Shown in pieces: positions 9,726 through 29,187 of a DNA stretch of 64,000 bases. The notes below the pieces were generated by a model. That model was given only the letters and a program-made list of their open reading frames with translations, was not told the DNA's origin and did no database searches. The stretch is from the NCBI RefSeq assembly GCF_001482305.1, contig NZ_LOHP01000017.1:124001-188000 (forward strand), read 5' to 3'. How positions within the stretch are numbered: position 1 is the stretch's first letter; each line of letters opens with the position of its first letter. Source of the stretch: Leucobacter sp. G161 (GTDB taxonomy: Bacteria; Actinomycetota; Actinomycetes; Actinomycetales; Microbacteriaceae). The translations under genes and the position numbers were made by a program.

Positions 9726-9781
9726 CGGCGCTGCAGCGCGCGTTGCGGGCGCCCGCTTGCGCTGCGCCCCGCATCTAGGGG

Positions 9782-9832
9782 CAGTTTGCGCCATGAATGC
9801 AGGGAAAATCCCGGGCTTCATGGCGCAAACTG
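9782..9832. repeat. Long inverted repeat downstream of pheT
   Basis: Perfect 16-bp arms, CAGTTTGCGCCATGAA (9782-9797) and its complement (9817-9832), enclose a 19-nt loop that contains a second small stem (GGGA/TCCC). It may terminate pheST. The arms are longer than needed and no T-run follows, so it could be a REP-like chromosomal repeat. A weaker GTGTGT/ACACAC hairpin follows at 9843-9860. Confidence 0.7.
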
Positions 9833-9937
9833 ACCACAGCTTGTGTGTGGGGAGACACACGGTAGCGTTGGGGATGTACGCTCCGCGGGCAAGCCCGCCC
9901 GCTGGCCCGCTGGGATGCCCCGACGACGGAGGCCCGC

Positions 9938-10777
9938 ATGCTCATCGCGATCGCTGGAAGTACCGGAACAGTTGGCAAACACCTGGTCAGCCGGGCGCTC
10001 GCCGCAGGCCACGACGTGCTCGCCCTCGCCCGCAACCCGCACGCAGTGGATCTCGCCGCTGGCGCGGCAGCCGTGACCGCTGCCGGCCTCTCAGGCCCTA
10101 TGGATGCTGCAGCTCCCGCACCCCCAGCGCAGGGCACCCTCACCCTTGTGGCGGCTGATCTTACGACCGCAGAGCCGCTTGATCTGTCGGGCGTCGACGT
10201 GGTGGTCGACGTCTCCGCAAGTAGCAAGCTCTCCGGCTCCCGCGAGTTCTTCGGTGCAGTCACTGAGAAGCTGTTGCGAGCAGGCGCCGCGGCCGATGTG
10301 GGCCACTACGTCGCCCTCTCGATCGTGGGCGCGGCTGCGAGCCCCTTCGGCTACTACGCAGGGAAAGCGCTTCAGGAGCAGCTCATCGAGTCTGGTCCGC
10401 TGCCGTGGACACTGCTGAGAGCCACGCAGTTCTTCGAGTTCGCCGAGCAAAGCTCCGTTTCCGTTGGGCGCTGGACGATCATCGCGAAGATGCGCACACA
10501 GCCCGTGGCTGCTGCATCAGTAGCGCGGCGTTTGCTCGAGCTCGCGAGTCGTCCAGCTCAGGGGAATGCGCGGGATCTCGCAGGTCCCGACGAACTCTGG
10601 CTCGCCGATCTCGGACGAATGGCCTTGGAGACCCACGGGCTCAGCCAATCAGTCATTGAACTACCGCTTCCGGGAGCCTTCGGGCGCGCGGTGCGTTCGG
10701 GCGGCTCCCTTCCGGGGTCCGGCACCGACATCGATAGTGTGAGCTATGAGGATTGGCTTGCTGCCGGCGCCCACTGA
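9938..10777 (+). CDS. NmrA-like NAD(P)-binding protein (atypical SDR)
   Basis: The 279-aa Rossmann protein starts with the dinucleotide motif GSTGTVG (residues 7-13). It resembles atypical short-chain dehydrogenases of the NmrA/YtfG type, which bind NAD(P)H and act as reductases or redox sensors. The region VVDVSASSKLSGSREFF and the conserved WTLLRATQF segment fit this group. A good GGAGG site precedes the ATG. It is monocistronic, followed by a small GC-rich hairpin at 10795-10836. No substrate can be named. Confidence 0.8.
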   Translation: MLIAIAGSTGTVGKHLVSRALAAGHDVLALARNPHAVDLAAGAAAVTAAGLSGPMDAAAPAPPAQGTLTLVAADLTTAEPLDLSGVDVVVDVSASSKLSGSREFFGAVTEKLLRAGAAADVGHYVALSIVGAAASPFGYYAGKALQEQLIESGPLPWTLLRATQFFEFAEQSSVSVGRWTIIAKMRTQPVAAASVARRLLELASRPAQGNARDLAGPDELWLADLGRMALETHGLSQSVIELPLPGAFGRAVRSGGSLPGSGTDIDSVSYEDWLAAGAH

Positions 10778-12832: not shown

Positions 12833-13894
12833 ATGACGTACAGTGTGGCGGTCGCCGGAGCGAGCGGGTATGCGGGAGGCGAGCTGCTGCGCTTGCTTGC
12901 GGATCACCCGGAGTTTGAGATTCGAACGGTCACCGGGCATTCCAATGCCGGCAAACCGCTCATCGCATCGCAGCCACACTTGCGATCGCTCGCGCACCTC
13001 ACACTGCGGGAGACCACTCCCGAGGTGCTCGACGGCCACGACGTCGTGTTCTTCGCGCTGCCGCACGGCGCATCGGGGACGCTCACCGCGCAGCTGAAGA
13101 ACGTGCGACTCGCGATCGACTGCGGCGCGGATCACCGGCTCACGAGCGAAGCAGACTGGGCCGCGTTCTACGGCGGCGACTTCAACGAACCCTGGACCTA
13201 CGGGGTGCCCGAACTCATCGTCACGGGCGAATCTGGCGAACAGAGCCGCCAGCGGACGCAACTCGTCGGTGCGACGCGGATCGCGGCCCCCGGCTGCAAC
13301 GCCTCCACCGTGGCGCTCTCACTTGCGCCAGGCATCGCCGCGGGCGTCATCGAGCCCACCGACATCGTGACGGTTCTCGCGGTCGGCCCCTCGGGTGCAG
13401 GCAAGGCAGCGCACACCCACCTGCTTGGCTCCGAACTCATGGGCACCGCGAACCCCTACGCCGTCGGCGGAACGCACCGACACATCCCCGAGATCCAGCA
13501 GGCCCTCCGCGGGGCAGGCGCGGCGGAGGATCCCACGCTGAGCTTCACACCAGTACTCGTGCCGATGAGTCGCGGCATCCTCGCGACAACAACCGCACGC
13601 ATCGTGCCGGGAACGAGCGCCGCCGACGTGCGCGCCGCCTGGGAGGGCGTTTACGCTGACGAGACCTTCGTGCACGTGCTCCCCGAGGGCGTGTTCCCGC
13701 GCACGGCAGACACGATCGGCGCAAACACCTGCCTGATGGGCGTCGCGATCGACGAGGCCGCAGGCCGCGTCGTTATCGTCGCCGCCGTCGATAACCTTGC
13801 CAAGGGCACGGCTGGCGCCGCGATCCAATCGGCAAACATCGCCCTTGGTATCCCCGAAGCCACCGGCCTGAGCGTGAATGGAGTCGCACCGTGA
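12833..13894 (+). CDS. argC: N-acetyl-gamma-glutamyl-phosphate reductase
   Basis: A 353-aa NADPH-dependent reductase of the third step of arginine synthesis. NADP motif [14 protein letters not shown] (8-21). The catalytic cysteine is in APGCNAST, and the GPSGAGK and GTHRHIPEI segments are typical of ArgC. AAAGGG precedes the ATG. Its stop overlaps the argJ GTG by four bases. It is the first gene of the arg operon. Confidence 0.97.
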
Positions 13895-15090
13895 CCGTAA
13901 CCACCCCCGAAGGGTTCCGCTCAGCCGGAATCACCGTCGGCTTGAAGAGCACCGGCAAGCCCGACCTCGCACTCGTCGTCAACGACGGCCCCGCACCCGC
14001 GAGCGCCGTCGTCTTCACCTCGAACCGTGCGCAGGCCAACCCGATTCTCTGGAGCCGAAAGGTCGCCCAGAACGGTGCGGCCCGGGCGGTCATCTTGAAC
14101 TCAGGCGGCGCAAACTGCTTCACCGGCGACTTCGGCTACGAGACCACCAGGCTCACCGCTGAGGCAGTCGCCCGCGAACTCGCTGCGCAGGCAACGGGCG
14201 CCGAGCGCACCCCCGCAGACATGCTCGAGGAGGGCGCCGAGCGCGTGCTCGTGTGCTCCACGGGACTCATCGGCACCGGTGACCAGGCGTTTCGCGACAA
14301 GATCGTCACGAACGTACCCGGCCTCGTCGGCGCGCTCGCCGCAGACGACACGACCGCTCCCGCCGCGATCCTCACGACCGACTCGGTCGAGAAGACTGCG
14401 ATCCACGAGGGCGACGGCTGGACGATCGGTGCGATGGCGAAGGGTGCCGGCATGCTTGCTCCGGGCCTCGCTACGATGCTCGTCGTCATCACCACTGATG
14501 CCCAGCTCGACAGCGACGAGCTCGACGCCGCCCTCCGCCGGGCGACTGCCGTGAGCTTCGACCGGCTCGACTCCGACGGCTGCATGTCGACGAACGACCA
14601 GGTGACACTCCTCGCGAGCGGCGCCTCGGGTGTCACCCCAGATGTGAACGAGTTCGCCACGGCCCTCGCGGGCGTGTGTGACTCGCTTGCCGCGCAGCTT
14701 CAGGAGGACGCTGAGGGTGCGAGCCACGACATCGACATCGAGGTGCGTGGCGCCGCGAGCGTAGAGGACGCGCTCGAGGTGGGCCGCTCGGTTGCGCGCA
14801 ACAATCTCTTTAAGGCCGCGATCTTCGGTAACGATCCGAACTGGGGCCGCGTGCTCGCAGCGATCGGGACCACCGAGGCAGCGTTCGATCCTTACGCCGT
14901 CGACGTGAGCTTCAACGGCGTGCGCCTGTGCCACGCGGGCGCCCCCGACCGCCCGGTCGAGGAGTGCGATCTCACGCCGCGCAAGACGCACGTCGAGATC
15001 GAGCTGTTCGCCGGTGCCTTCGCTGCGACCGTGCGCACCAACGACCTCACGCACGACTACGTGCACGAGAATTCCGCGTACTCGAGCTAG
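13891..15090 (+). CDS. argJ: Bifunctional glutamate N-acetyltransferase / ornithine acetyltransferase
   Basis: The 399-aa ArgJ transfers acetyl from N-acetylornithine to glutamate, recycling the acetyl group. It is a self-cleaving Ntn-fold protein; the cleavage and nucleophile region is [14 protein letters not shown], with Thr in [15 protein letters not shown] and [13 protein letters not shown] are also family signatures. The start is a GTG overlapping the argC stop. A second, closely similar ArgJ lies at 28024-29187; this copy is the biosynthetic one by its operon position between argC and argB. Confidence 0.97.
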
Positions 15091-15097
15091 GAGCCAA

Positions 15098-16003
15098 ATG
15101 ACGAACGTCACGACCCCCGTCGAGCGCGGGCGGGCGGCTGAGAAGGCCGCCGTGCTTATCGAATCGCTGCCGTGGCTGAAGAAGTTCCGCGACGCCATCA
15201 TGGTGATCAAGTTCGGCGGCAACGCGATGATCGACGATGCGCTGCTCAAAGCGTTCGCGGAAGACGTGGTCTACCTCAGGCACACCGGTATCCGCCCCGT
15301 CATCGTGCACGGCGGTGGCCCGCAGATTAACCGCATGCTCGAGCGGCTCGGTATCGAGAGCGAGTTCCAGGGCGGGTACCGGGTGACCACCCCGGAGACG
15401 ATGGACGTCGTACGCATGGTGCTCACCGGGAAGGTGAACCCCGAGCTCGTTGACGAGATCAATGCGCACGGCCCGCTCGCTTCGGGCACCACGGGAGAGG
15501 ACGCCGGCCTGTTCATCGGTCGCAGGCGTCCGCCCATGGAAGTCGACGGTGCGCTCGTAGATCTTGGCCGCGTCGGCGATATCGTCGGCGTGCGCTCAGA
15601 GTCAGTGCTCGCGACGCTTGATGCCGGGCTCATCCCGGTCGTGTCGTCGATCGCGCCCGACGTGGATCGCCCGGGGGAGTCGCTCAACATCAATGCCGAC
15701 GCCGCTGCATCCGCGCTGGCCTCTGCGCTCGGGGCCGAGAAGCTTGTCATCCTGACGGACGTCGCCGGGCTCTACGCTGACTGGCCGGACCGTGACTCGC
15801 TGGTCTCATCGATCAGCTCGTCTGAACTCGAAGCGATGTTGCCGTCGCTCGAATCGGGCATGATTCCGAAGATGCGCGCCTGCCTCGACGCGGTGCAGGG
15901 TGGCGTGCCCAAGGCCGCGATCATCGACGGCCGCGAGCCACACTCCGTGCTCCTCGAGATCTTCACGGAGCAAGGCATTGGCACGGAAGTCACGCCCGGC
16001 TAA
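15098..16003 (+). CDS. argB: Acetylglutamate kinase
   Basis: The 301-aa amino-acid kinase phosphorylates N-acetylglutamate. Motifs: KFGGNAM near residue 38, [21 protein letters not shown] and [12 protein letters not shown]. The ATG at 15098 has a TAGGAG site 4 bases upstream; a longer frame from 15014 overlaps argJ and is rejected. The usual next gene, argD, is absent: the following frame encodes a prepilin-peptidase-like protein. Confidence 0.96.
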
Positions 16004-18275: not shown

Positions 18276-18483
18276 TTGGGGACCCCATCGTCATGATTAT
18301 CGCGGCTGTAGTGCGCATCGATAATGAGCCAAATTTCAAACATTCGTCGGAGTTTGCACTCTAAGACACGAGCTTGGGAATCGCAAGGGGCTGGGAAGCG
18401 GCGCCGCGGGCGCGCTCCAAGGAAAATGTGACCGACGCCGATAGGATGGGAGCATTCAATTGGCCGAGTGAAAGGCGGGCACA

Positions 18484-18804
18484 GTGACCTACGTGATTGC
18501 TCTTCCGTGCGTGGATTTGAAGGACCGTGCCTGCGTTGACGAGTGCCCGGTCGACTGCATCTATGAGGGTGACCGGATGCTGTACATCCACCCAGATGAG
18601 TGCGTTGACTGTGGGGCTTGCGAGCCGGTGTGTCCGGTAGAGGCGATTTACTACGAAGACGATCTCCCCGGAGAGTGGTCCGAGTACTACAAGGCCAACG
18701 TCGAGTTCTTCGACGAGATTGGCTCGCCCGGTGGTGCGGCGAAGGTGGGCGTCTACGATTTCGACCACCCGATTATCGCTGCGCTCCCGCCGCAGGAGCA
18801 GTAG
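18484..18804 (+). CDS. fdxA: 7Fe ferredoxin (3Fe-4S/4Fe-4S)
   Basis: The 106-aa actinobacterial FdxA is an electron carrier. Eight cysteines are seen at 9, 17, 21, 25, 40, 43, 46 and 50, in the patterns CVDECPVDC and CVDCGACEPVC, followed by the usual acidic C-terminal tail. GTG start with an AAAGGCGGG site. A candidate -10 TAGGAT lies in the leader. In many actinobacteria dapC follows fdxA; here the citrate synthase gene follows instead. The 207-nt gap upstream shows no other gene. Confidence 0.95.
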   Translation: MTYVIALPCVDLKDRACVDECPVDCIYEGDRMLYIHPDECVDCGACEPVCPVEAIYYEDDLPGEWSEYYKANVEFFDEIGSPGGAAKVGVYDFDHPIIAALPPQEQ

Positions 18805-19019
18805 CCCGGAGCTCCGCTGGGTGAGCGCCATTGGCGGCTCAGGACACGCCGAAGTCTGGGTGCGGAAAGTGCGAATTTTGTTTGATGTCAAAGTACTTTC
18901 TGTCAGAAACCGGCATGAATGAGCCAATTGGTGCGGGAGCGCCCAGTTTGGAGGTAGGGTGAAAAAGATCGCTGCCCACACCTTGGGGCGTGCTCGAACG
19001 GACCTCACGAGGAGATGAC

Positions 19020-20312
19020 GTGACTGAAACACCTGCGGCTCAGGCCACCGCCAAGCTGAGCTTCCCCGGAGGATCCGCTGAGTTCCCAATCATTCCTTCG
19101 GTTGATGGGCCCGACGCGATCGACCTCAGCTCGCTCACGAAGCAGAGCGGCTACACCGGACTTGACTACGGCTTTGTGAACACGGCTTCGACGAAGTCCG
19201 AGATTACGTACATCGACGGCGAAGCCGGGATCCTCCGCTACCGCGGATATCCCATTGACGAGCTCGCGCAGGCGTCGACCTTCCTCGAGGTCGCCTACCT
19301 GCTCATCTATGGCGAGCTCCCCACTGCGGATGAGCTTGCGGGCTTCGACAACGAGATTCGCCGACACACGCTGCTCCACGAGGACATGCGGTACTACTTC
19401 GAAGGCGTGCCGCACACCGCGCACCCGATGGCAGTGCTCTCCGGCGGTCTGCAGACGATGTCGACCTACTACGAAGACTCGCTCGACACAGCGGTGCCCG
19501 AGTTCGTTGAGGTGAACACGATCCGGCTGCTCGCGAAGCTTCCCGTGCTTGCTGCATACGCGCACAAGAAGTCGATTGGCCAGGCGTTCCTGTACCCGGA
19601 CAATAATCTGAGCTTCGTCGAGAACTTCCTCCGACTGAACTTCGGCAATAAGGCCGAAAAGTACGAGATGAACCCCGTACTTGTTGATGCGCTCGACAAG
19701 CTCCTCATTCTCCACGCCGATCACGAGCAGAACGCCTCGACGTCGACCGTGCGCCTCGTCGGCTCCACCGGCGCGAACATGTTCTCCTCGATCTCCGCTG
19801 GCATCAATGCGCTCTCGGGCCCGCTGCACGGCGGCGCAAACGAAGCAGTGCTCGATATGCTCGCCCAGATCCGCGACTCAGGTCAGAGCGTCGAAACCTT
19901 CGTTGAGAAGGTCAAGAACAAGGAAGACGGCGTGAAGCTTATGGGCTTCGGACACCGCGTCTACAAGAACTATGATCCGCGCGCACGCATCGTCAAGGAC
20001 AGCGCTGCAAAGGTGCTCGAAGAGCTCGGTGTGAACGATCCGCTCCTCGCCCTCGCGCAGGAGCTCGAGCAGATCGCGCTCGAGGACGACTACTTCAAGG
20101 AGCGCAAGCTCTATCCGAACGTCGACTTCTACACCGGCGTGATCTACAAGGCGATGGGCTTCCCGACGCGTATGTTCACGGTGCTGTTCGCAATCGGCCG
20201 GCTCCCCGGCTGGATCGCGCAGTGGCGCGAGGCGCGACTCGACCCGCAGACCAAGATCGGTCGCCCGCAGCAGCTTTACTTGGGCTCACCGGAGCGCCAC
20301 CTCGGCCGCTAG
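19020..20312 (+). CDS. gltA: Type II citrate synthase
   Basis: A 430-aa enzyme condensing oxaloacetate and acetyl-CoA at the entry of the TCA cycle. The catalytic triad is visible as His in HADHEQNAST, His in GFGHRVYKNYDPRA and Asp in NVDFYTG. GTG start preceded by GAGGAG; a longer in-frame reading from 18990 adds ten residues without support. The C-terminus IGRPQQLYLG is typical. It ends at a strong hairpin facing the convergent aminotransferase gene. Confidence 0.97.
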   Translation: MTETPAAQATAKLSFPGGSAEFPIIPSVDGPDAIDLSSLTKQSGYTGLDYGFVNTASTKSEITYIDGEAGILRYRGYPIDELAQASTFLEVAYLLIYGELPTADELAGFDNEIRRHTLLHEDMRYYFEGVPHTAHPMAVLSGGLQTMSTYYEDSLDTAVPEFVEVNTIRLLAKLPVLAAYAHKKSIGQAFLYPDNNLSFVENFLRLNFGNKAEKYEMNPVLVDALDKLLILHADHEQNASTSTVRLVGSTGANMFSSISAGINALSGPLHGGANEAVLDMLAQIRDSGQSVETFVEKVKNKEDGVKLMGFGHRVYKNYDPRARIVKDSAAKVLEELGVNDPLLALAQELEQIALEDDYFKERKLYPNVDFYTGVIYKAMGFPTRMFTVLFAIGRLPGWIAQWREARLDPQTKIGRPQQLYLGSPERHLGR

Positions 20313-20375: not shown

Positions 20376-21605
20376 TTAGGCCGCGGTGCGCAAGACGGAC
20401 ACACACTCGCCGATGAGGGCGATGGCATCGCGGATCTCGGTTTCGGTGGCCACAGCGGGCGGCGCCATGCGGAGAGTCTTGCCCTGGGTATCTTTCACCA
20501 GCACGCCCCGGTTGCGGAGCTCCTGTGCAACTGCCTGCGCGGGCGCGAATGCCGGGTCGATGTCAACGCCGGCCCAGAGTCCAATTGACCGGACTGCGGT
20601 CACTTCCGGTAGTTCCGAGAGAAGGGCGAGTGCCTCAGCAAGGACGTCGCCGAGCTGCGACACTCGGGGGAGAAACGCAGGATCGCGCAGTTCCGCGATC
20701 ACGCTGCGTGTGACGGCTGACGCAAACGGGCTGCCGCCGAACGTCGACCCGTGGCTTCCCGGGGTAAAAACATCGAGAAACGCGGAATCACCAAGCAGCG
20801 CGGACACCGGGAGGATCCCGCCGCTGAGGACCTTCCCGACAGCAACGAGATCGGGACGCACGCCGAAGTGCTCAGATGCGAAGAGCTTGCCGGTGCGGCC
20901 CATGCCGGACTGCACCTCGTCGGCGATGAAGACAATCCGCTCCGCCGTCGTGAACTCACGAAGCTCCTCAAAAAACCCGGCAGGGGGCAGAATCACGCCG
21001 GCTTCGCCCTGGACCGGTTCGATGAGGACAGCAACGACAGGAGATGCTGCTGCGACCTGCCGCACGGCCTCCATGTCGCCGAACGGTACGGTGACGAAAC
21101 CCGGGGTGTAGGGCCCGTAGCCGGCCCGCGCGACGGGATCGTCGGAGCCCGAGATGATCGTGCTGGTGCGGCCATGGAAATTCTTGGAGAACGTGATGAT
21201 GACGCCCTCATCCTCGCCAAGTGCGCGGTGCGTGTGCGCCCACTTGCGGGCACATTTGATCGCGGTTTCGATCGCTTCGGCACCAGTGTTCATGAGGAGT
21301 ACGCGTTCGAAGCCGGTGAGCTCAGTGAGCTCCTGTACGCAGGCGGCGAGCTCGTCATTGTAGAACGCGCGCGAGGTAAGCGTCAGCCGGTCGAGCTGAG
21401 CGTGGGCGGCTGCCGTGATCCGTGGCGGGCGATGGCCAAACAGCATGGTCGAGAAGCCTCCGAGGAAATCGAGGTAGCGAACACCCTCGATGTCGGTGAC
21501 GTACGCGCCGTCGCCCTCTGTAAGCACGATCGGTACTGGCGCGTAATTTGAGGCCGCGTGAGCCTCGGTGATGGCGATAGTGAGGGCAGTCTGTGTCTGA
21601 CTCAT
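20376..21605 (-). CDS. rocD: Class III aminotransferase, ornithine aminotransferase-like
   Basis: A 409-aa PLP enzyme. PLP-site features: MNTGAEA (105-111), FHGRT, D229 in FIADEVQSG and the Schiff-base lysine K258 in VGKVLSGG. The segments SRAFYND, ERVLLMNTGAEA and VLVKDTQGKTLRMAPP match ornithine delta-aminotransferase (RocD), which makes glutamate 5-semialdehyde, better than GabT or ArgD. A strong AGAAGGAG ribosome site 8 nt before the ATG at 21605 fixes the start. It lies 43 nt after lhgO on the same strand, so the two form an operon. Acetylornithine or another omega-amine cannot be excluded as substrate. Confidence 0.88.
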   Translation of the reverse strand: MSQTQTALTIAITEAHAASNYAPVPIVLTEGDGAYVTDIEGVRYLDFLGGFSTMLFGHRPPRITAAAHAQLDRLTLTSRAFYNDELAACVQELTELTGFERVLLMNTGAEAIETAIKCARKWAHTHRALGEDEGVIITFSKNFHGRTSTIISGSDDPVARAGYGPYTPGFVTVPFGDMEAVRQVAAASPVVAVLIEPVQGEAGVILPPAGFFEELREFTTAERIVFIADEVQSGMGRTGKLFASEHFGVRPDLVAVGKVLSGGILPVSALLGDSAFLDVFTPGSHGSTFGGSPFASAVTRSVIAELRDPAFLPRVSQLGDVLAEALALLSELPEVTAVRSIGLWAGVDIDPAFAPAQAVAQELRNRGVLVKDTQGKTLRMAPPAVATETEIRDAIALIGECVSVLRTAA

Positions 21606-21648
21606 GAGGTGGTCTCCTTCTGTTGTAATGGGTGGTGTGTGGGGGTGT

Positions 21649-22872
21649 TTAGGTGTTGCGACCCGGCTTGGTGAGCCGATCGTCGGCCAGAATCTCTTCG
21701 ATGATGTGCTCCGCGATTGCCATTGCTGAGGTTGCTGCGGGTGAGGGGGCGTTCCGCACGAAGACAGCGTTGTCAAAGCGCTGGATGACGAAGTCGTCTT
21801 CGAGGGAACCGTCGGCGTTCATAGCTTGCGCGCGAATGCCGCGTGGGCCCGGGCTGAGATCTGCCGACACCAGGCCGGGAATGAAATCCTGTGCGCCGGA
21901 AAGGAACGAACGCTTGTTGGCGGTGCGAAGCTGGTCGAGAGCCTCACCGAGGTTGTGGCGGGCGAACCGCCAGAATGCCGAAGACGAGGCGATCTGCAGG
22001 GCGTCGGGAAGATTGAAACCCAAACGACTGTACTGCTCACGAGCGAACGACAGAAAAGCGTTGGGGCCAACAGTGACGTCCCCATCGACAGTGCGGGTGA
22101 GATGCACGCCAAGGAACGGATAGTCGGGGTCTGGAACCGGATACAGCAGGCCGTTCACGAGCGCTGCCTTTTCCGGAGCGAGCTTGTAATAGTCGCCCGA
22201 GAACGGAACGATCGCTGGGTATTTGCCTGCACCGGAGCGTTTGGCAAGCCGGTCTGACTGCAAGCCATTGCACGCGATGACATAGTCAAAGGCCTCGTCG
22301 CCGGTTGACGACTCCACAATTTGCTCGGTGCCACGGCGGGAAATCCGAGAAACCGTAGTGCCGAGCCGGACCTCGCCGCCTGCTTGCCGGACGTCGTCAA
22401 GCAGTGCGCGGGTGACACCGGGGTAGTCGACGATCGCGGTATGCGGGGAGTGGATCGCCGCGGTGCCAACGCAGTGTGGCTCAATCTGTCGCATGGCATC
22501 CTCGCCGATGATTGCGACATCGGGAACGCCATTTGCCTGTGCCTTTCTTAGAATGATGTCGAGCTGTGCGAGCTGTCCCTCGGTGTGAGCGACGACGAGC
22601 TTGCCGCAGGCGTCGTAGCGGATGTCGCGCGACGTTGCATACGCTTCTAACAGTTCGACGCCCCGCCGGGTGAGTCGTGCTTTCAAGCTACCTGGCGGGT
22701 AATACAGCCCCGCGTGCACAACTCCGCTGTTGTGGCCAGTCTGGTGCGTGCCCGGTTCACTCTCCTTCTCGAATAGAACGACCGAGTGCGAATCGTTGTT
22801 CGCGGTCAGTTGCGCTGCGACGGAGGCGCCGATGATGCCGCCTCCGATCACCGCGATGCGTCGTGTGTGCAT
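21649..22872 (-). CDS. lhgO: L-2-hydroxyglutarate oxidase/dehydrogenase
   Basis: A 407-aa FAD-dependent oxidoreductase of the DAO superfamily. FAD motif GGGIIGASVAAQL near the start. The LhgO-like segments GTHQTGHNSGVVHAGLYYPP, YDACGKLVVA and VPVPDP-like PVPDPDYPFLGVH fit enzymes that oxidise L-2-hydroxyglutarate to 2-oxoglutarate, feeding electrons to the quinone pool. The ATG at 22872 has AGAGGT just upstream. The gene is divergent from the GntR regulator by only 33 bp. In E. coli lhgO lies in the csiD-lhgO-gabDTP operon with the GntR repressor CsiR; CsiD (glutarate hydroxylase) is not found here. Confidence 0.88.
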   Translation of the reverse strand: MHTRRIAVIGGGIIGASVAAQLTANNDSHSVVLFEKESEPGTHQTGHNSGVVHAGLYYPPGSLKARLTRRGVELLEAYATSRDIRYDACGKLVVAHTEGQLAQLDIILRKAQANGVPDVAIIGEDAMRQIEPHCVGTAAIHSPHTAIVDYPGVTRALLDDVRQAGGEVRLGTTVSRISRRGTEQIVESSTGDEAFDYVIACNGLQSDRLAKRSGAGKYPAIVPFSGDYYKLAPEKAALVNGLLYPVPDPDYPFLGVHLTRTVDGDVTVGPNAFLSFAREQYSRLGFNLPDALQIASSSAFWRFARHNLGEALDQLRTANKRSFLSGAQDFIPGLVSADLSPGPRGIRAQAMNADGSLEDDFVIQRFDNAVFVRNAPSPAATSAMAIAEHIIEEILADDRLTKPGRNT

Positions 22873-22905
22873 ACGTACCTCTTTCAGAAGTGCCATAGTG
22901 GGGGT

Positions 22906-23604
22906 GTGGAAAAGCTCTCAAAACAAGACAGTTTGGCTCGCCGGGCGATGGAACAGATTCGCTCGGAGATCACCAGCGGCCGACTTGAGCCGGGCACGAT
23001 GGTGTCTGCGGTGCAGTTGGCTGAACGGATTGGAGTGTCGAGGACGCCGATTCGTGACGCGCTGCTGCAGCTTGAGCAGGCGGGCATGGTGCGCATTGAA
23101 AAGAACCGCGGGGCAACGATTCTCGCCACCACGTTGGAAGACCTGCTCGAAGTCTTCCAATTGCGACTCATGCTCGAAGTACCTGCTGCTGGCCAGGCGG
23201 CACGCGTGCGGAGCGACGAACAGCTTGCCGCGATCCTGGAGTGTTTCACCGCCATGGGTGACGCCACCTCCGACCCGGAACAGCTGCTCGTATTGGATCG
23301 CGACCTGCATATCCTCATCGCGGAGGCGTCGGGCAACAGCAGGCTCTCTGGCCTACTCATGGACCTGCGTAACCTGGTGCTGACTCGGGGAGTGGGAACA
23401 ACCTCAACGGCGAGAACCGGGCAGGAGCTCGTTGATGACCACGCAGGTCTCGTTGCAGCGATTGCACAGGGCGACGCCGATGTGGCTTCTGCCGAGATGA
23501 AGCGGCACATCAAGAACACCGCCCACCTGCTGCTTGCGCAGGAGGCTGCGGGAGATCCCGAGCACGGACCAGCGTGGGTGTCCGAACAGCTCGAGTGGCT
23601 GTAG
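22906..23604 (+). CDS. GntR-family regulator with FCD domain
   Basis: A 232-aa FadR-type regulator. N-terminal winged helix (about 10-75: RRAMEQIRSEI, SAVQLAERIGVSRTPIRDAL, RIEKNRGATI). C-terminal FCD ligand domain with likely metal ligands in LDRDLHILIAE, VDDHAGLV and MKRHIKN. It probably senses a pathway acid such as a hydroxy or dicarboxylate and controls both the divergent lhgO-rocD and the downstream transporter operon. GTG 22906 is chosen because the HTH starts soon after; CATAGT 7 bp before it looks like a -10 element, so the message may be leaderless. The frame upstream lies antisense to lhgO. Confidence 0.88.
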   Translation: MEKLSKQDSLARRAMEQIRSEITSGRLEPGTMVSAVQLAERIGVSRTPIRDALLQLEQAGMVRIEKNRGATILATTLEDLLEVFQLRLMLEVPAAGQAARVRSDEQLAAILECFTAMGDATSDPEQLLVLDRDLHILIAEASGNSRLSGLLMDLRNLVLTRGVGTTSTARTGQELVDDHAGLVAAIAQGDADVASAEMKRHIKNTAHLLLAQEAAGDPEHGPAWVSEQLEWL

Positions 23605-23750
23605 CGCTCGCAACCGCCGGGCAGGGGTAAGTTGCGGCCTGACGGCCGCAGGTGAGGCGAGGAAAAACTCCTCAACGACTGCGTTACCATGCGGCCTCCT
23701 ATGCCGATTCTTCCCCGGAATATGGGGCGAGCAATCGAAGCTTAATTTAA

Positions 23751-23780
23751 GTTGCATGCAACGTGCAACCTGTGTATTCT
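23751..23780 (+). promoter_or_regulatory. Promoter of the ABC/ALDH/argJ-2 operon with overlapping GntR-type palindrome
   Basis: A -35-like TTGCAT (23752-23757) and -10-like TATTCT (23775-23780) are separated by 17 bp. The -35 lies inside the perfect palindrome GTTGCATGCAAC (23751-23762), and a further GTGCAAC half-site follows. A palindrome over the -35 is the expected layout for repression by the adjacent GntR protein. The gap 23605-23867 contains no gene. Confidence 0.5.
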
Positions 23781-23867
23781 GATATCCGTGCAGCCGGGGC
23801 GGTCCAGCGATGAAGTCGACTCCGGGCCGCCAAACCGTGAGTTTTTCCATACCCAAAGGAGGGTTCT

Positions 23868-24770
23868 ATGAACATGAAACGTGGAGCAGTGGCCGCGTGC
23901 ATCGTAGGTAGTGCAGTGCTGGCGCTGACCAGTTGTGCGCAGCCGGATGGCGGTCAGGCTGGAGAAGCGGTAGCGCCCACCGTGAACACCGACGCCCCGC
24001 TATACGAGCAGTTGCCCGATCGGATCAAAGAGGCCGGGAAGATCGTCAACGCCGGGGATCTGACATACGCCCCGTTCGAGTGGTTGCAGGAAGACGGCAA
24101 GACGGTGAAAGGTATTGACGTCGATATCGCAAGCGCCTTGAGCGAACAGATCGGGGTACCGTTCGACTGGCAGGACGTGAAGACAGAGGCTGCTCTCAGC
24201 GGCATCCAGTCGAAACGATACGATGCCCTGCTCGCTTCGATGACTTATACAGATGAGCGTGCCGAGGTCTACGACTATGTGACGTACCTGAAAGCGGCAT
24301 CTGGTTTTATTACCGCCCCTGACCGGGTGGGCGAATTCACTGCGGTCGAGGACTTTTGTGGAAAGAAGGTCGCCGGCACGCGGGGGACTATCCAGATCAC
24401 CCAAGTCGAGGAGCTCAGCGCCGAGTGCGTGGCAGACGGCAAGGAGCCGGTGGCGATTCAGATGCTCGACAGCGATCAGGCCGGAATTCTTCAGATCCGC
24501 CAGGGCGGTGTTGATGCAAGCGTCATTCTTGGCGCAGTCGGCTCCTACGCAGTCTCACAGTCGGAAGGGGCTGTCGAACTCATCCCGGGCCTGACGCTGG
24601 GGGATAGCGTCTACGGAATCATGCTCAACAAGGATGACGTTGAACTGCGCGACGTGTTGCTTGCAGGAATGAACGCGATCATCGCGGACGGCAGCTATGC
24701 GGACATTCTCGAGGAGTGGGGCGTCAGCGACCTTGCTCTCACCGAATCACTGATTAACAACGGACGATAG
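23868..24770 (+). CDS. Polar amino-acid ABC transporter substrate-binding lipoprotein
   Basis: A 300-aa type II periplasmic-binding protein with lipobox LTSC (about Cys23). Features of the SBP_bac_3 family: DLTYAPFEW, GIDVDIASALSE, SMTYTDERAEVYDY, and GTRGTIQ in place of the usual RxGT motif that holds the ligand carboxylate. A perfect AAAGGAGG site precedes the ATG. It is first in the operon with the permease, ATPase, aldehyde dehydrogenase and second argJ genes, so it probably delivers the substrate these enzymes degrade, perhaps ornithine or an N-acyl or hydroxy relative. Confidence 0.92.
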   Translation: MNMKRGAVAACIVGSAVLALTSCAQPDGGQAGEAVAPTVNTDAPLYEQLPDRIKEAGKIVNAGDLTYAPFEWLQEDGKTVKGIDVDIASALSEQIGVPFDWQDVKTEAALSGIQSKRYDALLASMTYTDERAEVYDYVTYLKAASGFITAPDRVGEFTAVEDFCGKKVAGTRGTIQITQVEELSAECVADGKEPVAIQMLDSDQAGILQIRQGGVDASVILGAVGSYAVSQSEGAVELIPGLTLGDSVYGIMLNKDDVELRDVLLAGMNAIIADGSYADILEEWGVSDLALTESLINNGR

Positions 24771-24778
24771 GCACGAGC

Positions 24779-25690
24779 ATGGCCACTCCGAACACGATGA
24801 CGATCACCCTCCCCGGTGAGGACGAGCAACTATTCAAACTCGTCCGGCACAAGAGCGTGGGTTCAGCGATCGCCGCAGTACTCGTCCTATTGGTGATCGC
24901 CGGTGTCATCGCGGCGTTCGTTTTTGCCGACATCGACTACGCGGTCACCCTGAAGTACCTCTTCGACCCCCAGATCCTCAGCGGAGTCGTGACGACGCTG
25001 GAACTGACGGTCATCTCGATGCTTGTCGGCGTCATGCTCGGAGTGGTCACCGCCCTGTTGCGGGAATCGAAGAACCGAGTGCTCTCGGGTGCCGCGGGCT
25101 TTTACACCTGGCTATTCCGAGGAACCCCGGTTCTTGTCCAACTCCTGATCTGGTTCAATATCGCGCTTGTCATACCCACTGTCTCCTTCTTCGGGATGTG
25201 GACTGTGAGCACGAATACCATCATGACACCGTTCCTCGCCGCAATCCTGGCACTCGGAATCAACGAGGGCTCCTACATGTCGGAAATCGTCAGGGCCGGG
25301 TTGCTGGCGGTAGACAAGGGGCAGGCGGAGGCTGCGCTCGCGCTGGGCATGCGGAAGCGCCGAGTCATGCTGTCTGTGGTGTTGCCGCAGGCGCTTCGGA
25401 TTATCCTGCCGCCTGCAGGGAACCAGCTCATTGCGATGCTGAAAACCTCTGCGCTCGCATACACGATTTCGGTATCTGAGCTGCTCAATGGGGCCTTCCG
25501 CATCTACACACTCAACTACAAGGTCATTGAGCTGCTGTTCACTGCCTCAATTTGGTATCTGTTTATGACAACCGTGCTGACCTTCCTACAGAGCTGGCTG
25601 GAGCGCCGGATGAACCGTGGGTTCGCTGGCGAAGCTGCCCCGAGTATGAAGAAGCGCTGGCTGAAAAACACCTTTGGAGTAACACGATGA
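24779..25690 (+). CDS. Amino-acid ABC transporter permease (HisM/HisQ type)
   Basis: A 303-aa inner-membrane permease of the polar amino-acid family. A long N-terminal part with one helix precedes the core. The core carries the family segments [25 protein letters not shown] and the EAA loop EAALALGM, which contacts the ATPase. Only one permease gene is present, so a homodimer is likely. It overlaps the ATPase gene by four bases (ATGA). Confidence 0.92.
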
Positions 25691-26487
25691 GCGAAGCAAC
25701 CGTGATCCGGGCCGAGGGCGTCAGCAAACGCTTTGGGGACAACCATGTACTGAAACACATCAACATGACCGTTGATAAGGGCGAAGTCGTTGTGCTGCTC
25801 GGACCTTCCGGGTCTGGGAAGTCGACGTTTCTCCGCTGCATCAACAACCTCGAACGCATCGACGACGGCCTGCTTGCAGTGAACGGCGAGCTCTCTGGCT
25901 ACCGCCGTGACGGCGACACCCTCTACGAACTCAGCGAGAAACAAATCGCGAAGCACCGCGAGCAGGTAGGAATGGTGTTTCAACGCTTCAACCTGTTCCC
26001 GCACATGACAGTTCTTGAGAACGTCATGCTTGCCCCGGTGAAGGTGAAGCGAGCCGACCGTCGGGCAAGTGAGGAGCATGCCCGCGAGCTGCTCACCCGA
26101 GTGGGGCTTCCCGAGAAAGCAGATGCCTACCCGGCACAACTATCGGGGGGACAGCAGCAGCGTGTAGCGATTGCTCGAGCTCTTGCGATGCGGCCGAGCA
26201 TTATGCTCTTTGACGAACCGACGAGCGCCCTTGACCCCGAACTGGTCGGCGAGGTGCTTGACGTGATGAAGAAGCTTGCCGCCGAGGGGATGACGATGGT
26301 CGTGGTGACACACGAGATGACGTTCGCCCGGGAGGTCGCCGACCGAGTCGTGTTCATGGCGGACGGTTACATCGTAGAGACTGGATCGCCCGAAGCTGTC
26401 TTCGGTAACCCCCAGCACGAGCGCACCCGGGCATTTCTCCGAACTGTGCGCGACGAACCAGCCGATAGCACGGCGCACACCATCTGA
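25687..26487 (+). CDS. Amino-acid ABC transporter ATP-binding protein
   Basis: A 266-aa ATPase of the GlnQ/HisP family. Walker [11 protein letters not shown]-loop [17 protein letters not shown], signature [15 protein letters not shown], Walker [14 protein letters not shown], switch His in VVTHEM. It has the small insertion after FLRCINNLE typical of basic-amino-acid transporters of the HisP group ([15 protein letters not shown]). The ATG overlaps the permease stop. Confidence 0.94.
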
Positions 26488-26502
26488 GAAGGACCCATCG
26501 AC

Positions 26503-27993
26503 ATGCCTACGTTCCCCACACTCGATGCGCACGACGCGTTCCTCGCCACGTTCGACACTGGCGCACGAATTCCAGGAGCTGACACCTCAACGTTTGAACG
26601 ATTCGCTGTCGTGGATCCCGCGACCGGAGGCGGAATCGCGCAAGTGGCTGACACGCCGATATCCCTGGCAGCACACTGCATGCAGACCGCTACCCGCGGC
26701 TTCGACAACTGGTCCAAACACACTCCGCGCGGTCGCTCGAATGTGCTTGCGCGCGCCGCTCATATGCTCCTCGAACGCATCGACACGTTCGCGGCAACCA
26801 TGACGCGAGAAATGGGAAAGCCGCTTGAAGAGGCGCGCGCCGAAGTGCGCTTCTCAGCGGACTACTTCAGGTGGTACTCCGAGGAGGCTGTGAGATCTCA
26901 CGGTGGGTATCGTGAGGCCCCGGGCGGGGGCGCCCGTCTCATTGTCACCCGGCAGCCCGTAGGTGTCGCACTGCTCATCACGCCGTGGAACTTCCCGCTG
27001 GCTATGGGCGCGCGCAAATCAGCTGCCGCGCTCGCCGCCGGCTGTTCCGTGATCCTCAAACCAGCGGAAGCTACGCCGTTGACTTCGCTGCTACTCGGTG
27101 ACGTGCTCGTTGACGCCGGCGTACCCCCTGAGGCATTCCAAGTCGTGACGACGTCCGACTCGGCCGGATGGTCGCGGGCACTGATGTCCGATCAGCAATT
27201 GAAGAAGGTCTCATTCACTGGCTCCACCCGGGTTGGCTCGATGCTCATTGAGCAGTCAGCGCAGCACATCCAGAAGCTCTCGTTGGAACTCGGCGGGGAT
27301 GCACCGTTTCTCGTGTTTGATGACGCTGACCTTGAGCGTGCCGTCGAGAGCGCCGTCATCTCAAAGATCCGGAACGGAGGGCAGGCCTGCGTTGCAGCGA
27401 ACAGGTTCTTGGTGCAAGAGGGCATCGCCGAGGAGTTCACCGCCGAGCTCGCGAAGCGCCTCAACGCGCTCACAGTGGGGTCGGGGTTTGCGGAGGGCGT
27501 AGACCTCGGACCGCTCATCAGCGAGCGTGCTCACGGGCAAGTGAATGACCTCGTCACAGGTGCCCTGGAGCTTGGCGCCGCGAACGCATGCGCTTTCACC
27601 CAGCCTGACGGTCCCGGGTTCTTTATGCATCCGGCGCTGCTCACCAACGTGCCTGAAACGGCATCGATCTCGTCCGCCGAGATTTTTGCGCCGATCGCTG
27701 TCGTCGGAACCTTCCGCACACCTGCTGAAGCGGTCGCACGCGCGAACGACACTCCTTTCGGGCTTGCTGGCTACGTCTTCTCCCAGGACATCGACCAGGC
27801 TTTCGGAGTCGCACACGCCCTCAACGTTGGCGTTCTCGGTATCAACAAGGGGCTCGTTGCTGACGCTTCCAGTCCGTTTGGTGGCATCGGATACTCAGGA
27901 TATGGCAAGGAGGGCGGAGTCGAGGGGATGCAAGATTTCCAGACTGTCAAGCAGTTCAACCTTGATATGCCGTCCGCGGCATTCCTCGGTTAA
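26503..27993 (+). CDS. Aldehyde dehydrogenase, succinate-semialdehyde dehydrogenase (GabD) type
   Basis: A 496-aa NAD(P)-dependent aldehyde dehydrogenase. Motifs: TPWNFPLAMGARK, FTGSTRVG, the catalytic Glu in SLELGGDAPF and the catalytic Cys in GGQACVAANRF, then GGIGYSGYGKEGG near the end, all in the GabD/SSADH style. SAEIFAPIAVV replaces the common EEIFGPV-type motif. In this operon it probably oxidises the semialdehyde made by the RocD-like enzyme (glutamate, N-acetylglutamate or 2-hydroxyglutarate semialdehyde). It starts 15 nt after the ATPase gene. Confidence 0.9.
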   Translation: MPTFPTLDAHDAFLATFDTGARIPGADTSTFERFAVVDPATGGGIAQVADTPISLAAHCMQTATRGFDNWSKHTPRGRSNVLARAAHMLLERIDTFAATMTREMGKPLEEARAEVRFSADYFRWYSEEAVRSHGGYREAPGGGARLIVTRQPVGVALLITPWNFPLAMGARKSAAALAAGCSVILKPAEATPLTSLLLGDVLVDAGVPPEAFQVVTTSDSAGWSRALMSDQQLKKVSFTGSTRVGSMLIEQSAQHIQKLSLELGGDAPFLVFDDADLERAVESAVISKIRNGGQACVAANRFLVQEGIAEEFTAELAKRLNALTVGSGFAEGVDLGPLISERAHGQVNDLVTGALELGAANACAFTQPDGPGFFMHPALLTNVPETASISSAEIFAPIAVVGTFRTPAEAVARANDTPFGLAGYVFSQDIDQAFGVAHALNVGVLGINKGLVADASSPFGGIGYSGYGKEGGVEGMQDFQTVKQFNLDMPSAAFLG

Positions 27994-28023
27994 TCCGTCC
28001 GTGACCCAGGAAAGCGTGTCTCT

Positions 28024-29187
28024 ATGTCAGTAACCCTGCCAAGGGGGTTTCGCGCGAGCGGGATCGCCGCCGGAATCAAGCCCTCAGGCAAGCCCGATCT
28101 GGCCCTCGTGGTGAATGAAGGGCCGGATCGCGCCTGCGCGGTCGTGTTTACCCAGAACCGTGCCCAGGCGCACCCGGTGCGCTGGAGTCGGAAAGTCATG
28201 GACGGAGTAACTACACCGCACGCTGTGCTGTTGAACTCCGGAGGCGCGAACTGCTTCACGGGTCCCTTTGGTTATGAAACCGTCGAGCTGGCCGCGGGTG
28301 CCGTCTCAGCAGAGTTGCCGGGGACCGGGGCGGAGCAGGTGCTCGTGTGCTCTACGGGGCTCATCGGTAGTGGGGGAGAAGCGTTCAGGGCACGCCTCCT
28401 CGGGGGAATCCCCGAGCTCTGTGCTGGGCTCTCGCTCGACGGGTCACACCACGCTGCAGAGGCGATTCTCACCACTGACTCGATCGCGAAGACCGCTTCG
28501 CATACTGGCGAGGGATGGAGCGTTGGCGCCATCGGCAAAGGCGCGGGAATGCTTGCGCCGGGGCTCGCTACGATGCTGGTCGTGATTACGACGGACGCAG
28601 TCATCTCTTCCGAGGAACTCGACGGGGCGCTTCGTGGAGCCGTCGCAACAACCTTTAACAGACTCGACTCCGACGGGTGCATGTCGACGAACGACCAAGT
28701 CACGCTGCTGGCATCAGGGGCGTCTGGCGTGCGACCGAACCAGGAGGCATTTGCGGAGGCGCTGACAGCGGTCTGCGATACGATCGCCCGCCAACTGCAG
28801 GAGGATGCGGAGGGGGCTTCACACAGCATCGACATTGTCGTTGAAGGAGCGCAGACCGACGCGGACGCCGAGGAAGTGGGGCGCGCAGTCGCCAGGAACA
28901 ACCTCTTCAAAGCGGCGATTGCAGGTCAGGATCCCAACTGGGGCCGGGTACTTGCAGCGATTGGCGTCACGAAAGCGGCATTCGACCCGTACCTCGTCGA
29001 TGTGAGTTTCAACGGGGTCCGACTCTGTAGCGCAGGAAGCCCCGATCGCCCTCGCGACGAATGCGACCTTTCGCCCCGGCGTACCGTCGTGCTCATCGAT
29101 CTGCACGCCGGTGACGCCTCGGCACGCATTCGTACGAACGATCTCACTGTCGAGTATGTCCTCGGCAACAGCTCGTATGCCAGTTGA
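28024..29187 (+). CDS. Second ArgJ: ornithine acetyltransferase paralogue in a catabolic operon
   Basis: The 387-aa protein is clearly homologous along its whole length to the ArgJ at 13891-15090, including [11 protein letters not shown], the self-cleavage segment [14 protein letters not shown] with its Thr nucleophile, [13 protein letters not shown] and [12 protein letters not shown], so it should be active. It is 12 residues shorter, mainly through a deletion after YETVELAAGAVSAELPG. It is the last gene of the ABC transporter/ALDH operon, 30 nt after the ALDH gene, with AGGAAAG upstream. A catabolic or substrate-shifted acetyl-transfer role is inferred from context. Similar duplicates exist in other actinobacteria, for example OAT2/Orf6 of the clavulanic acid cluster. 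Confidence 0.93.
   Translation: MSVTLPRGFRASGIAAGIKPSGKPDLALVVNEGPDRACAVVFTQNRAQAHPVRWSRKVMDGVTTPHAVLLNSGGANCFTGPFGYETVELAAGAVSAELPGTGAEQVLVCSTGLIGSGGEAFRARLLGGIPELCAGLSLDGSHHAAEAILTTDSIAKTASHTGEGWSVGAIGKGAGMLAPGLATMLVVITTDAVISSEELDGALRGAVATTFNRLDSDGCMSTNDQVTLLASGASGVRPNQEAFAEALTAVCDTIARQLQEDAEGASHSIDIVVEGAQTDADAEEVGRAVARNNLFKAAIAGQDPNWGRVLAAIGVTKAAFDPYLVDVSFNGVRLCSAGSPDRPRDECDLSPRRTVVLIDLHAGDASARIRTNDLTVEYVLGNSSYAS

Follow-up and report, generated by a model that had tools for sequence, protein, structure and literature searches.

Bacterial L-2-hydroxyglutarate (L-2-HG) oxidases have been described in two roles, either together with the hydroxylation of glutarate by CsiD or in the use of L-2-HG alone (PMC8206213, PMC6265302, PMC5974017). 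In Pseudomonas putida W619, a GntR protein encoded beside lhgO, in a locus without csiD, senses L-2-HG (PMC8206213). Here we describe an eight-gene island at positions 20376-29187 of a window of 64,000 nucleotides (the whole stretch of DNA analysed) from contig NZ_LOHP01000017.1 of Leucobacter sp. G161, in which a gntR-lhgO pair is accompanied by an amino-acid-type ATP-binding cassette (ABC) importer, a RocD-like aminotransferase, an aldehyde dehydrogenase (ALDH) of the succinate-semialdehyde dehydrogenase (SSADH) type and a paralogue of ArgJ (ArgJ2). Because CsiD is absent and the GntR protein beside lhgO of W619 senses L-2-HG, the genes attached to this pair should produce or import L-2-HG. 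We propose, with a probability of about 0.4, that the island encodes a peripheral catabolic pathway plugged into the gntR-lhgO module, by which a C5 omega-amino acid would be burned via L-2-HG.

In the proposed pathway, the importer would take up a C5 compound that carries an omega-amino group and probably lacks a free alpha-amino group; the simplest candidate is L-5-amino-2-hydroxyvalerate, as such or acylated. Its terminal amine would be converted into an aldehyde by the RocD-like enzyme, the ALDH would oxidize the aldehyde to L-2-HG, and LhgO would convert L-2-HG into 2-oxoglutarate. The GntR protein would control the importer operon via TTGCATGYAACRTGCAA, responding to L-2-HG, and ArgJ2 would act on an acyl group of the imported compound. 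We infer the substrate, the direction of the pathway and the part of ArgJ2 from the gene content, the co-conservation and selection of the genes, the residue changes in their products, and the conservation of the module and its operator, all of which can be read from the sequences compared below.

The island genes and their residue changes

An earlier sequence-only reading of the window had described this island as two divergent units, lhgO-rocD leftward and the genes from the solute-binding protein (SBP) to argJ2 rightward. Both the gene list and the arrangement held at family level, as all eight reading frames are open and each product matches its named family in profile models, including GntR and FCD domains, SBP_bac_3, permease and ATPase in the respective proteins. 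On the reverse strand lie rocD (20376-21605, likeliest start 21605) and lhgO (21649-22872), 43 bp apart. On the forward strand lies gntR (22906-23604), whose refined start, a GTG at 22906, is 33 bp from the divergent start of lhgO. After a gap of 263 bp, the sole long intergenic one in the island, it is followed on the same strand by genes for the lipoprotein-like SBP (23868-24770), the permease (24779-25690) and the ATPase (25687-26487) of the importer, the ALDH (26503-27993) and ArgJ2 (28024-29187). The SBP and permease genes are 8 bp apart, the permease and ATPase genes overlap by 4, and the next two spacings are 15 (ATPase-ALDH) and 30 bp (ALDH-argJ2).

The complete island, in the same order and on the same strands, was found in three of 54 genus genomes (its own, G153 and G166), with proteins in the latter two 74-94% identical to those of the window; this and all other genome samples were drawn subsets of the collections. 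Since G153 and G166 share the gene order and strand, the arrangement exceeds chance. Comparison of the window with G153 or G166 gave ratios of non-synonymous to synonymous substitution (dN/dS) of 0.03-0.11 for every island gene and 0.10-0.11 for argJ2, rough values at synonymous distances above 1, and by this measure all eight genes are under purifying selection. An ArgJ at 74-100% identity to ArgJ2 was present in four of the 54 genomes (own included), the common genus ArgJ being 66-70% identical to it (full-length rows). The sequence-only reading had staked itself on the co-conservation of argJ2 with rocD and lhgO and was not refuted on this count; argJ2 lies beside the same seven genes in three of the four carriers. 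In the fourth, G186 (74% complete), the end of the ALDH gene and argJ2 stand alone on a contig of 3,320 bases, and searches of this incomplete genome detected neither lhgO nor the SBP, so that the island cannot be checked there. The SBP was found at 86-100% identity in the three island genomes and at ~35% in two further genus genomes, and at an E-value of 1e-60 it was found only in the window's own genome among 347 sampled order genomes (6 candidates scored per genome). LhgO was detected at E below 1e-60 in 10 of the 54 genus genomes, seven of them outside the island.

LhgO scored 487.6 bits against NF008726 (cut-off 299). In Drosophila L2HGDH, five side chains (Ser88, His92, Tyr289, His302 and Arg393) bind 2-oxoglutarate (PMC10726252), and all five are kept in the three island copies on an alignment with the numbering placed by motif, as are the pocket motifs NSGVVHAG, YPVPDPDYPFLGVH and G(I/V)RAQAM. 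CsiD (PF08943) was detected in the Escherichia coli positive control and in none of the 54 genus genomes; thus L-2-HG is not supplied by glutarate hydroxylation through CsiD, and a glutarate or lysine route of that kind was ruled out. The earlier remark that the island lacks csiD despite its resemblance to csiD-lhgO-gabDTP therefore extends to the whole genus sample.

The RocD-like enzyme scored 403.8 bits against the ornithine aminotransferase (OAT) model TIGR01885 (cut-off 378.4). The position of Tyr85 of human OAT, in the motif FLGGFSTMLFGH, is Phe in all three island copies; Tyr is kept in 40 of 40 aligned relatives (29/29 at order and 11/11 at class level, being the matches given as loci rather than every match), and eight aligned ArgD rows carry Ile. 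In human OAT, Tyr or Ile at position 85 discriminates ornithine from gamma-aminobutyric acid (GABA), the change Tyr85Ile raising the Km for ornithine 100-fold, and Asn89, Gln90 and Gly91 of OAT fit the motif YSAVNQG, which checks our numbering (PMC13327489). In the 8.5-16 kb read around four RocD relatives elsewhere (53-54% identical), no other gene of the island was present. A PutA-type protein of 1185 residues with a pyrroline-5-carboxylate (P5C)-dehydrogenase part (best match, below curated cut-offs) is encoded elsewhere in the 3.55 Mb host genome, so the island ALDH would not be needed for ordinary ornithine breakdown.

The ALDH itself scored 487 bits against TIGR01780, below the cut-off of 646, and its best solved relative is E. 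coli GabD. At what we take, by motif and not by structure, to be the carboxylate-binding positions of SSADH, both Arg are kept and Ser is replaced by Ala in all three island copies. In human SSADH, the residues concerned are Arg213, Arg334 and Ser498 (PMC11681614). Ala is also found at this position in the lhgO-linked SSADH-type enzyme of G240, and Ser in the closest ALDH paralogue of the window's own genome.

For the importer, the ligand site of the SBP was compared with that of GlnPQ, in which the binding-site Asp contacts the alpha-amino group of the ligand. Leu takes the place of this Asp in the island SBP, and the Asp is absent from all eight aligned family members; its mutation in GlnPQ abolishes binding (PMC8025302). 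The Ehu models for ectoine uptake all scored below their cut-offs, with 336.6 against 345.4 bits for EhuA, 41.3 against 190.9 for EhuB and, for the single permease, 125.6 of 197.0 for EhuC and 122.4 of 205.2 for EhuD; an ectoine route was rejected, as the eight genes include no ectoine hydrolase or deacetylase either. In two genus genomes (L250 and L251), an importer of the same family precedes a histidine-ammonia-lyase-like gene (scanned in L250), and on a plasmid of Rhizobium sp. SL42 (L248) one of the same type precedes an M20 deacylase whose second-best model, below cut-off, is the N-acetyl-diaminobutyrate deacetylase DoeB2.

ArgJ2 scored 394.7 bits against NF003802 (cut-off 351) and, aligned with 3it4, retains the nucleophile Thr and the other residues that we take to be catalytic. 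The sequence-only reading had called it a second ArgJ, and indeed an ordinary arginine block, argC-argJ1-argB (12833-16003; argC and argB identified by eye only), lies ~14 kb upstream, with an argJ1 product 68% identical to ArgJ2. The nearest relative of ArgJ2 in the named collection is from a Leucobacter metagenome-assembled genome (84%). The four ArgJ2 proteins differ from 132 other ArgJ at seven near-invariant columns, the changes including Gly for Ala just before a conserved Lys (4/4) and Gly for Glu just before the C-terminal Asn (3/4). On a tree built by a quick method, which leaves the exact sister of ArgJ2 unresolved, ArgJ2 formed one clade (support 99) with a long stem inside a Leucobacter-containing clade, and the ArgJ1 proteins of the four host genomes grouped together (support 99). 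Recent duplication of the host's own argJ1 was rejected on this ground, and the separate clustering of ArgJ2 and ArgJ1 across hosts suggests that ArgJ2 is older than the four host species.

A gntR-lhgO pair and its probable operator

The three island genomes share, without a single difference, a 28-base block, GTTGCATGCAACGTGCAACCTGTGTATT, that precedes the SBP gene. Within it, at 23751-23769 on the forward strand, lies GTTGCATGCAACGTGCAAC, which has no second match in the window when up to 3 mismatches are allowed and carries the palindrome TTGCATGYAACRTGCAA in the promoter of the importer operon, ~100 bp upstream of the SBP gene. From its conservation, TTGCATGYAACRTGCAA is probably the operator of the GntR protein; binding at this site, L-2-HG as the effector and a repressing action are what we would infer for that protein. 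A scan with up to 2 mismatches of 12 chosen genomes, of which five were known to have a gntR-lhgO pair, returned seven sites, and the reversed-pattern control none in all 12. The exact 19-mer was found at the importer promoter in the window's genome (G000), G153 and G166, and a site with 2 mismatches in G155 and G171 at the promoter of an IlvD-type dehydratase gene beside lhgO and a 42% identical gntR; two further sites, with 2 mismatches each, lie at G000:C7:9644-9662 and G167:C21:14796-14814. Scans for sigma-70 promoters and terminators gave fewer sites than shuffled sequence.

Some features of the dehydratase-linked loci were seen in passing. At L176 (6898-13565) and L178, lhgO lies beside genes for a D-2-hydroxyglutarate-dehydrogenase-like protein of 931 residues, a GntR protein and the IlvD-type dehydratase, with a weaker second operator-like site at L176:3577 and L178:3106. 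The lhgO of G171 (L178, ~9300-10500) matches in two pieces, being disrupted or mis-sequenced, and its G155 counterpart in one.

A search of 396 order genomes with the GntR protein at 1e-40 (7 candidates scored per genome) gave nine matches, the window's own and eight others. The 17-mer TTGCATGYAACRTGCAA, with at most one mismatch, was present in all eight of these other loci (20 kb read) and each of 60 permuted motifs in none, and the sites adjoin gntR, lhgO or linked catabolic genes. These loci (L275-L282) were picked by protein similarity, which makes them independent of the motif, not of shared ancestry, and the close pairs L275/L276 and L278/L280 count as about one observation each. LhgO was encoded in seven of the eight: four carry gntR-lhgO with a gene for a major facilitator superfamily (MFS) transporter, two combine an MFS gene with SSADH-type and alcohol dehydrogenases, and one has lhgO with no partner recognised by the queries used. 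The remaining locus, L279, has no lhgO; it encodes an acyl-CoA dehydrogenase and a CoA-transferase that matches the succinate-glutarate CoA-transferase family best (324 of 750 bits). Two of the MFS proteins were scanned and matched a metabolite/H+ symporter model just below its cut-off.

A comparable locus (L257) was found on the Arthrobacter conjugative plasmid AP024662, where gntR and lhgO are 32 bp apart and accompanied by SSADH-type and alcohol dehydrogenases, with an operator-like site (two mismatches) between the SSADH and MFS genes. In three lhgO-bearing loci (L275, L276 and L257), the partner of the SSADH-type enzyme is an alcohol dehydrogenase, and in the island it is an aminotransferase; the two pairs could be parallel ways of turning a terminal group into a second carboxylate. 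In an LhgO tree, with a usable row from 16 of 17 loci, a branch with support 100/100 separated the LhgO of the module loci, together with one unlinked member, from three other genus LhgO, and the pocket motifs were kept in all 16 rows, by pattern or on a second look. Since the pairing of GntR with LhgO and its one probable operator persist while the surrounding genes change, the two genes appear to form a reusable L-2-HG sensor/oxidase module whose neighbours are swapped between loci. What these loci have in common chemically is a C5 dicarboxylate.

Genomic setting of the island

The island is flanked by citA and a DUF3117 gene, and its third-codon GC is 0.70-0.76, against 0.81-0.86 for citA and argJ1. 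Five island-free loci holding both flanking genes were compared. In one, L036 (Leucobacter sp. cx-42), citA and the DUF3117 gene are 162 bp apart; the other four, L034, L042, L043 and L092, have ~2.2-2.4 kb of DNA at the island's place. With a short gap in one locus and other DNA in four, arrival by insertion and by replacement are both possible. A plasmid origin was rejected, as ArgJ2, SBP, LhgO and RocD all had less than 60% identity in the plasmid collection and thus no close copy there.

Further out, the fdxA-citA gap (window 18472-20312) measures 185 bp here, 200-275 bp in L036 and L037, and ~1.2-1.35 kb in L034, L035, L039, L042, L043 and L092, where there is an extra gene. In two genus genomes, those with our handles G161 and G165, the only argJ matches in two pieces.

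Weighing the proposed pathway against alternatives and described systems

The sequence-only reading had offered two pathways, one in which 5-amino-2-hydroxyvalerate passes through RocD and the ALDH to L-2-HG and then through LhgO to 2-oxoglutarate, and one of acetyl-cycling ornithine breakdown. The evidence favours the former, for which the intact LhgO pocket, the absence of csiD from 54 of 54 genomes and the shared regulator/operator module speak and which leaves ArgJ2 unexplained; the latter accounts for ArgJ2 and gives lhgO and its regulator no role, and neither explains all eight genes.

Several observations weigh against our proposal that a C5 omega-amino acid is burned via L-2-HG. The RocD-like enzyme still passes the ornithine-aminotransferase model, and it keeps the counterpart of OAT Tyr55; in the human enzyme this residue interacts with the ornithine alpha-amino group (PMC13327489), and its retention speaks against an altered alpha group. 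The loss of the SBP Asp is a family trait and weak evidence for a ligand without an alpha-amino group; it is no proof of one, because it extends to relatives beside a histidine-ammonia-lyase-like gene. The lhgO-linked SSADH-type enzyme of the Arthrobacter plasmid keeps Ser where the island ALDH has Ala, and the proposal requires no role of ArgJ2. On the regulatory side, the LhgR operator of W619 is TTGTCTGACAA (PMC8206213), as against TTGCATGYAACRTGCAA in the island, and the lhgO-gntR gap of the island showed no operator-like site. The palindrome at 23751-23769 is also a hairpin, one of four terminator-like matches, and may end gntR transcription. Because L279 has a CoA-transferase (family below cut-off) and no lhgO, the effector could be glutarate. 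Finally, a search by name in a limited collection of papers gave none on the proposed substrate, argininic acid being the only term found among the matches listed.

A doubtful but not negligible alternative is that two unrelated functions share one regulator, the use of L-2-HG by gntR-lhgO and an ordinary ornithine- or GABA-like use by rocD, the importer and the ALDH, with argJ2 carried along. Consistent with this, none of 11 other GntR loci (10 with lhgO) matches RocD, ArgJ2, SBP or permease within the 15-20 kb read, the Arthrobacter locus has two annotated aminotransferases, neither matching RocD, and RocD passes the OAT model; however, only 43 bp separate lhgO from rocD on their common strand, the genes are all co-conserved and constrained in the three full copies, and RocD has lost Tyr85.

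We consider acetyl-cycling ornithine catabolism unlikely. Here ArgJ2 would acetylate ornithine from N-acetylglutamate, the RocD-like enzyme and the ALDH would use acetylated forms, the acetyl group would return to ornithine, and LhgO would merely clear L-2-HG. The catalytic residues kept in ArgJ2 and the 30 bp between the ALDH gene and argJ2 agree with such a cycle, as do the alteration of RocD at Tyr85, the position of Ile in ArgD, and the deacylase with DoeB2 as second-best model, below cut-off, behind the same-family importer of the Rhizobium plasmid. Against this, the cycle has no role for lhgO, its regulator and the operator module, the PutA-type protein can handle P5C, and RocD scored 404 bits as an OAT but 340 as an ArgD (cut-off 410).

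A role for all eight genes would follow if the island were an alpha-hydroxy mirror image of acetylated ornithine metabolism, a long shot that makes ArgJ2 pass acetyl between alpha-hydroxyls. L-2-HG is the hydroxy counterpart of glutamate, and 5-amino-2-hydroxyvalerate that of ornithine. N-acetylation stops glutamate semialdehyde from closing to pyrroline carboxylate; an O-acetyl group masking the hydroxyl would likewise keep the RocD-made aldehyde from closing to a five-membered lactol. The ALDH would then yield O-acetyl-2-hydroxyglutarate, from which ArgJ2 would transfer the acetyl group to a fresh substrate molecule, and LhgO would take L-2-HG to 2-oxoglutarate; O-acetyl transfer by an ArgJ is hypothetical. 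Opine- or ectoine-type catabolism, with import of an N-substituted diamino acid and LhgO as an opine oxidase, is very improbable, for although the ATPase reaches 337 bits with EhuA, this is just below the 345 cut-off, the ectoine enzymes are missing from the eight genes, and LhgO matches L-2-HG enzymes at every tested residue.

Compared with described systems, the island resembles lhgR-lhgO of P. putida W619 in having gntR directly beside lhgO and no csiD and in the proposed sensing of L-2-HG, and differs from it by the added importer, aminotransferase, ALDH and ArgJ paralogue. The conserved motif of the island, TTGCATGYAACRTGCAA, appears to differ from the LhgR operator published for W619, in full 5'-T(A/T)GTCTGACAA (PMC8206213). 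With the csiD-lhgO-gabDTP glutarate/lysine route it shares lhgO with an SSADH-type enzyme, an aminotransferase and a GntR gene (PMC6265302, PMC5974017, PMC8206213), whereas it is without CsiD, has a RocD-type enzyme for GabT and an ABC importer for GabP, and carries ArgJ2 in addition. Plasmid AP024662 and the G240/G475 loci resemble the island in their homologous GntR (42-55%) and LhgO (52-58%), an SSADH-type enzyme and the operator (2 mismatches in AP024662, 1 in G240/G475); an alcohol dehydrogenase and an MFS transporter take the place of the island's aminotransferase, ABC importer and ArgJ2.

A single pairing of regulator and oxidase, together with its conserved probable operator, thus occurs with differing upstream enzymes in Leucobacter, on an Arthrobacter plasmid and in other genomes of the order. 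This arrangement gives L-2-HG the appearance of a funnel metabolite on which C5 omega-functional acids converge, and the conserved probable operator offers a searchable motif for further gntR-lhgO loci. Finally, ArgJ2 shares family and catalytic residues with the ArgJ of arginine biosynthesis (the host's own argJ1 product and 3it4 of Mycobacterium tuberculosis), but unlike these it is encoded in an operon with an importer and an ALDH, so that an enzyme of arginine biosynthesis, kept under constraint, has here been taken into an apparently catabolic operon.

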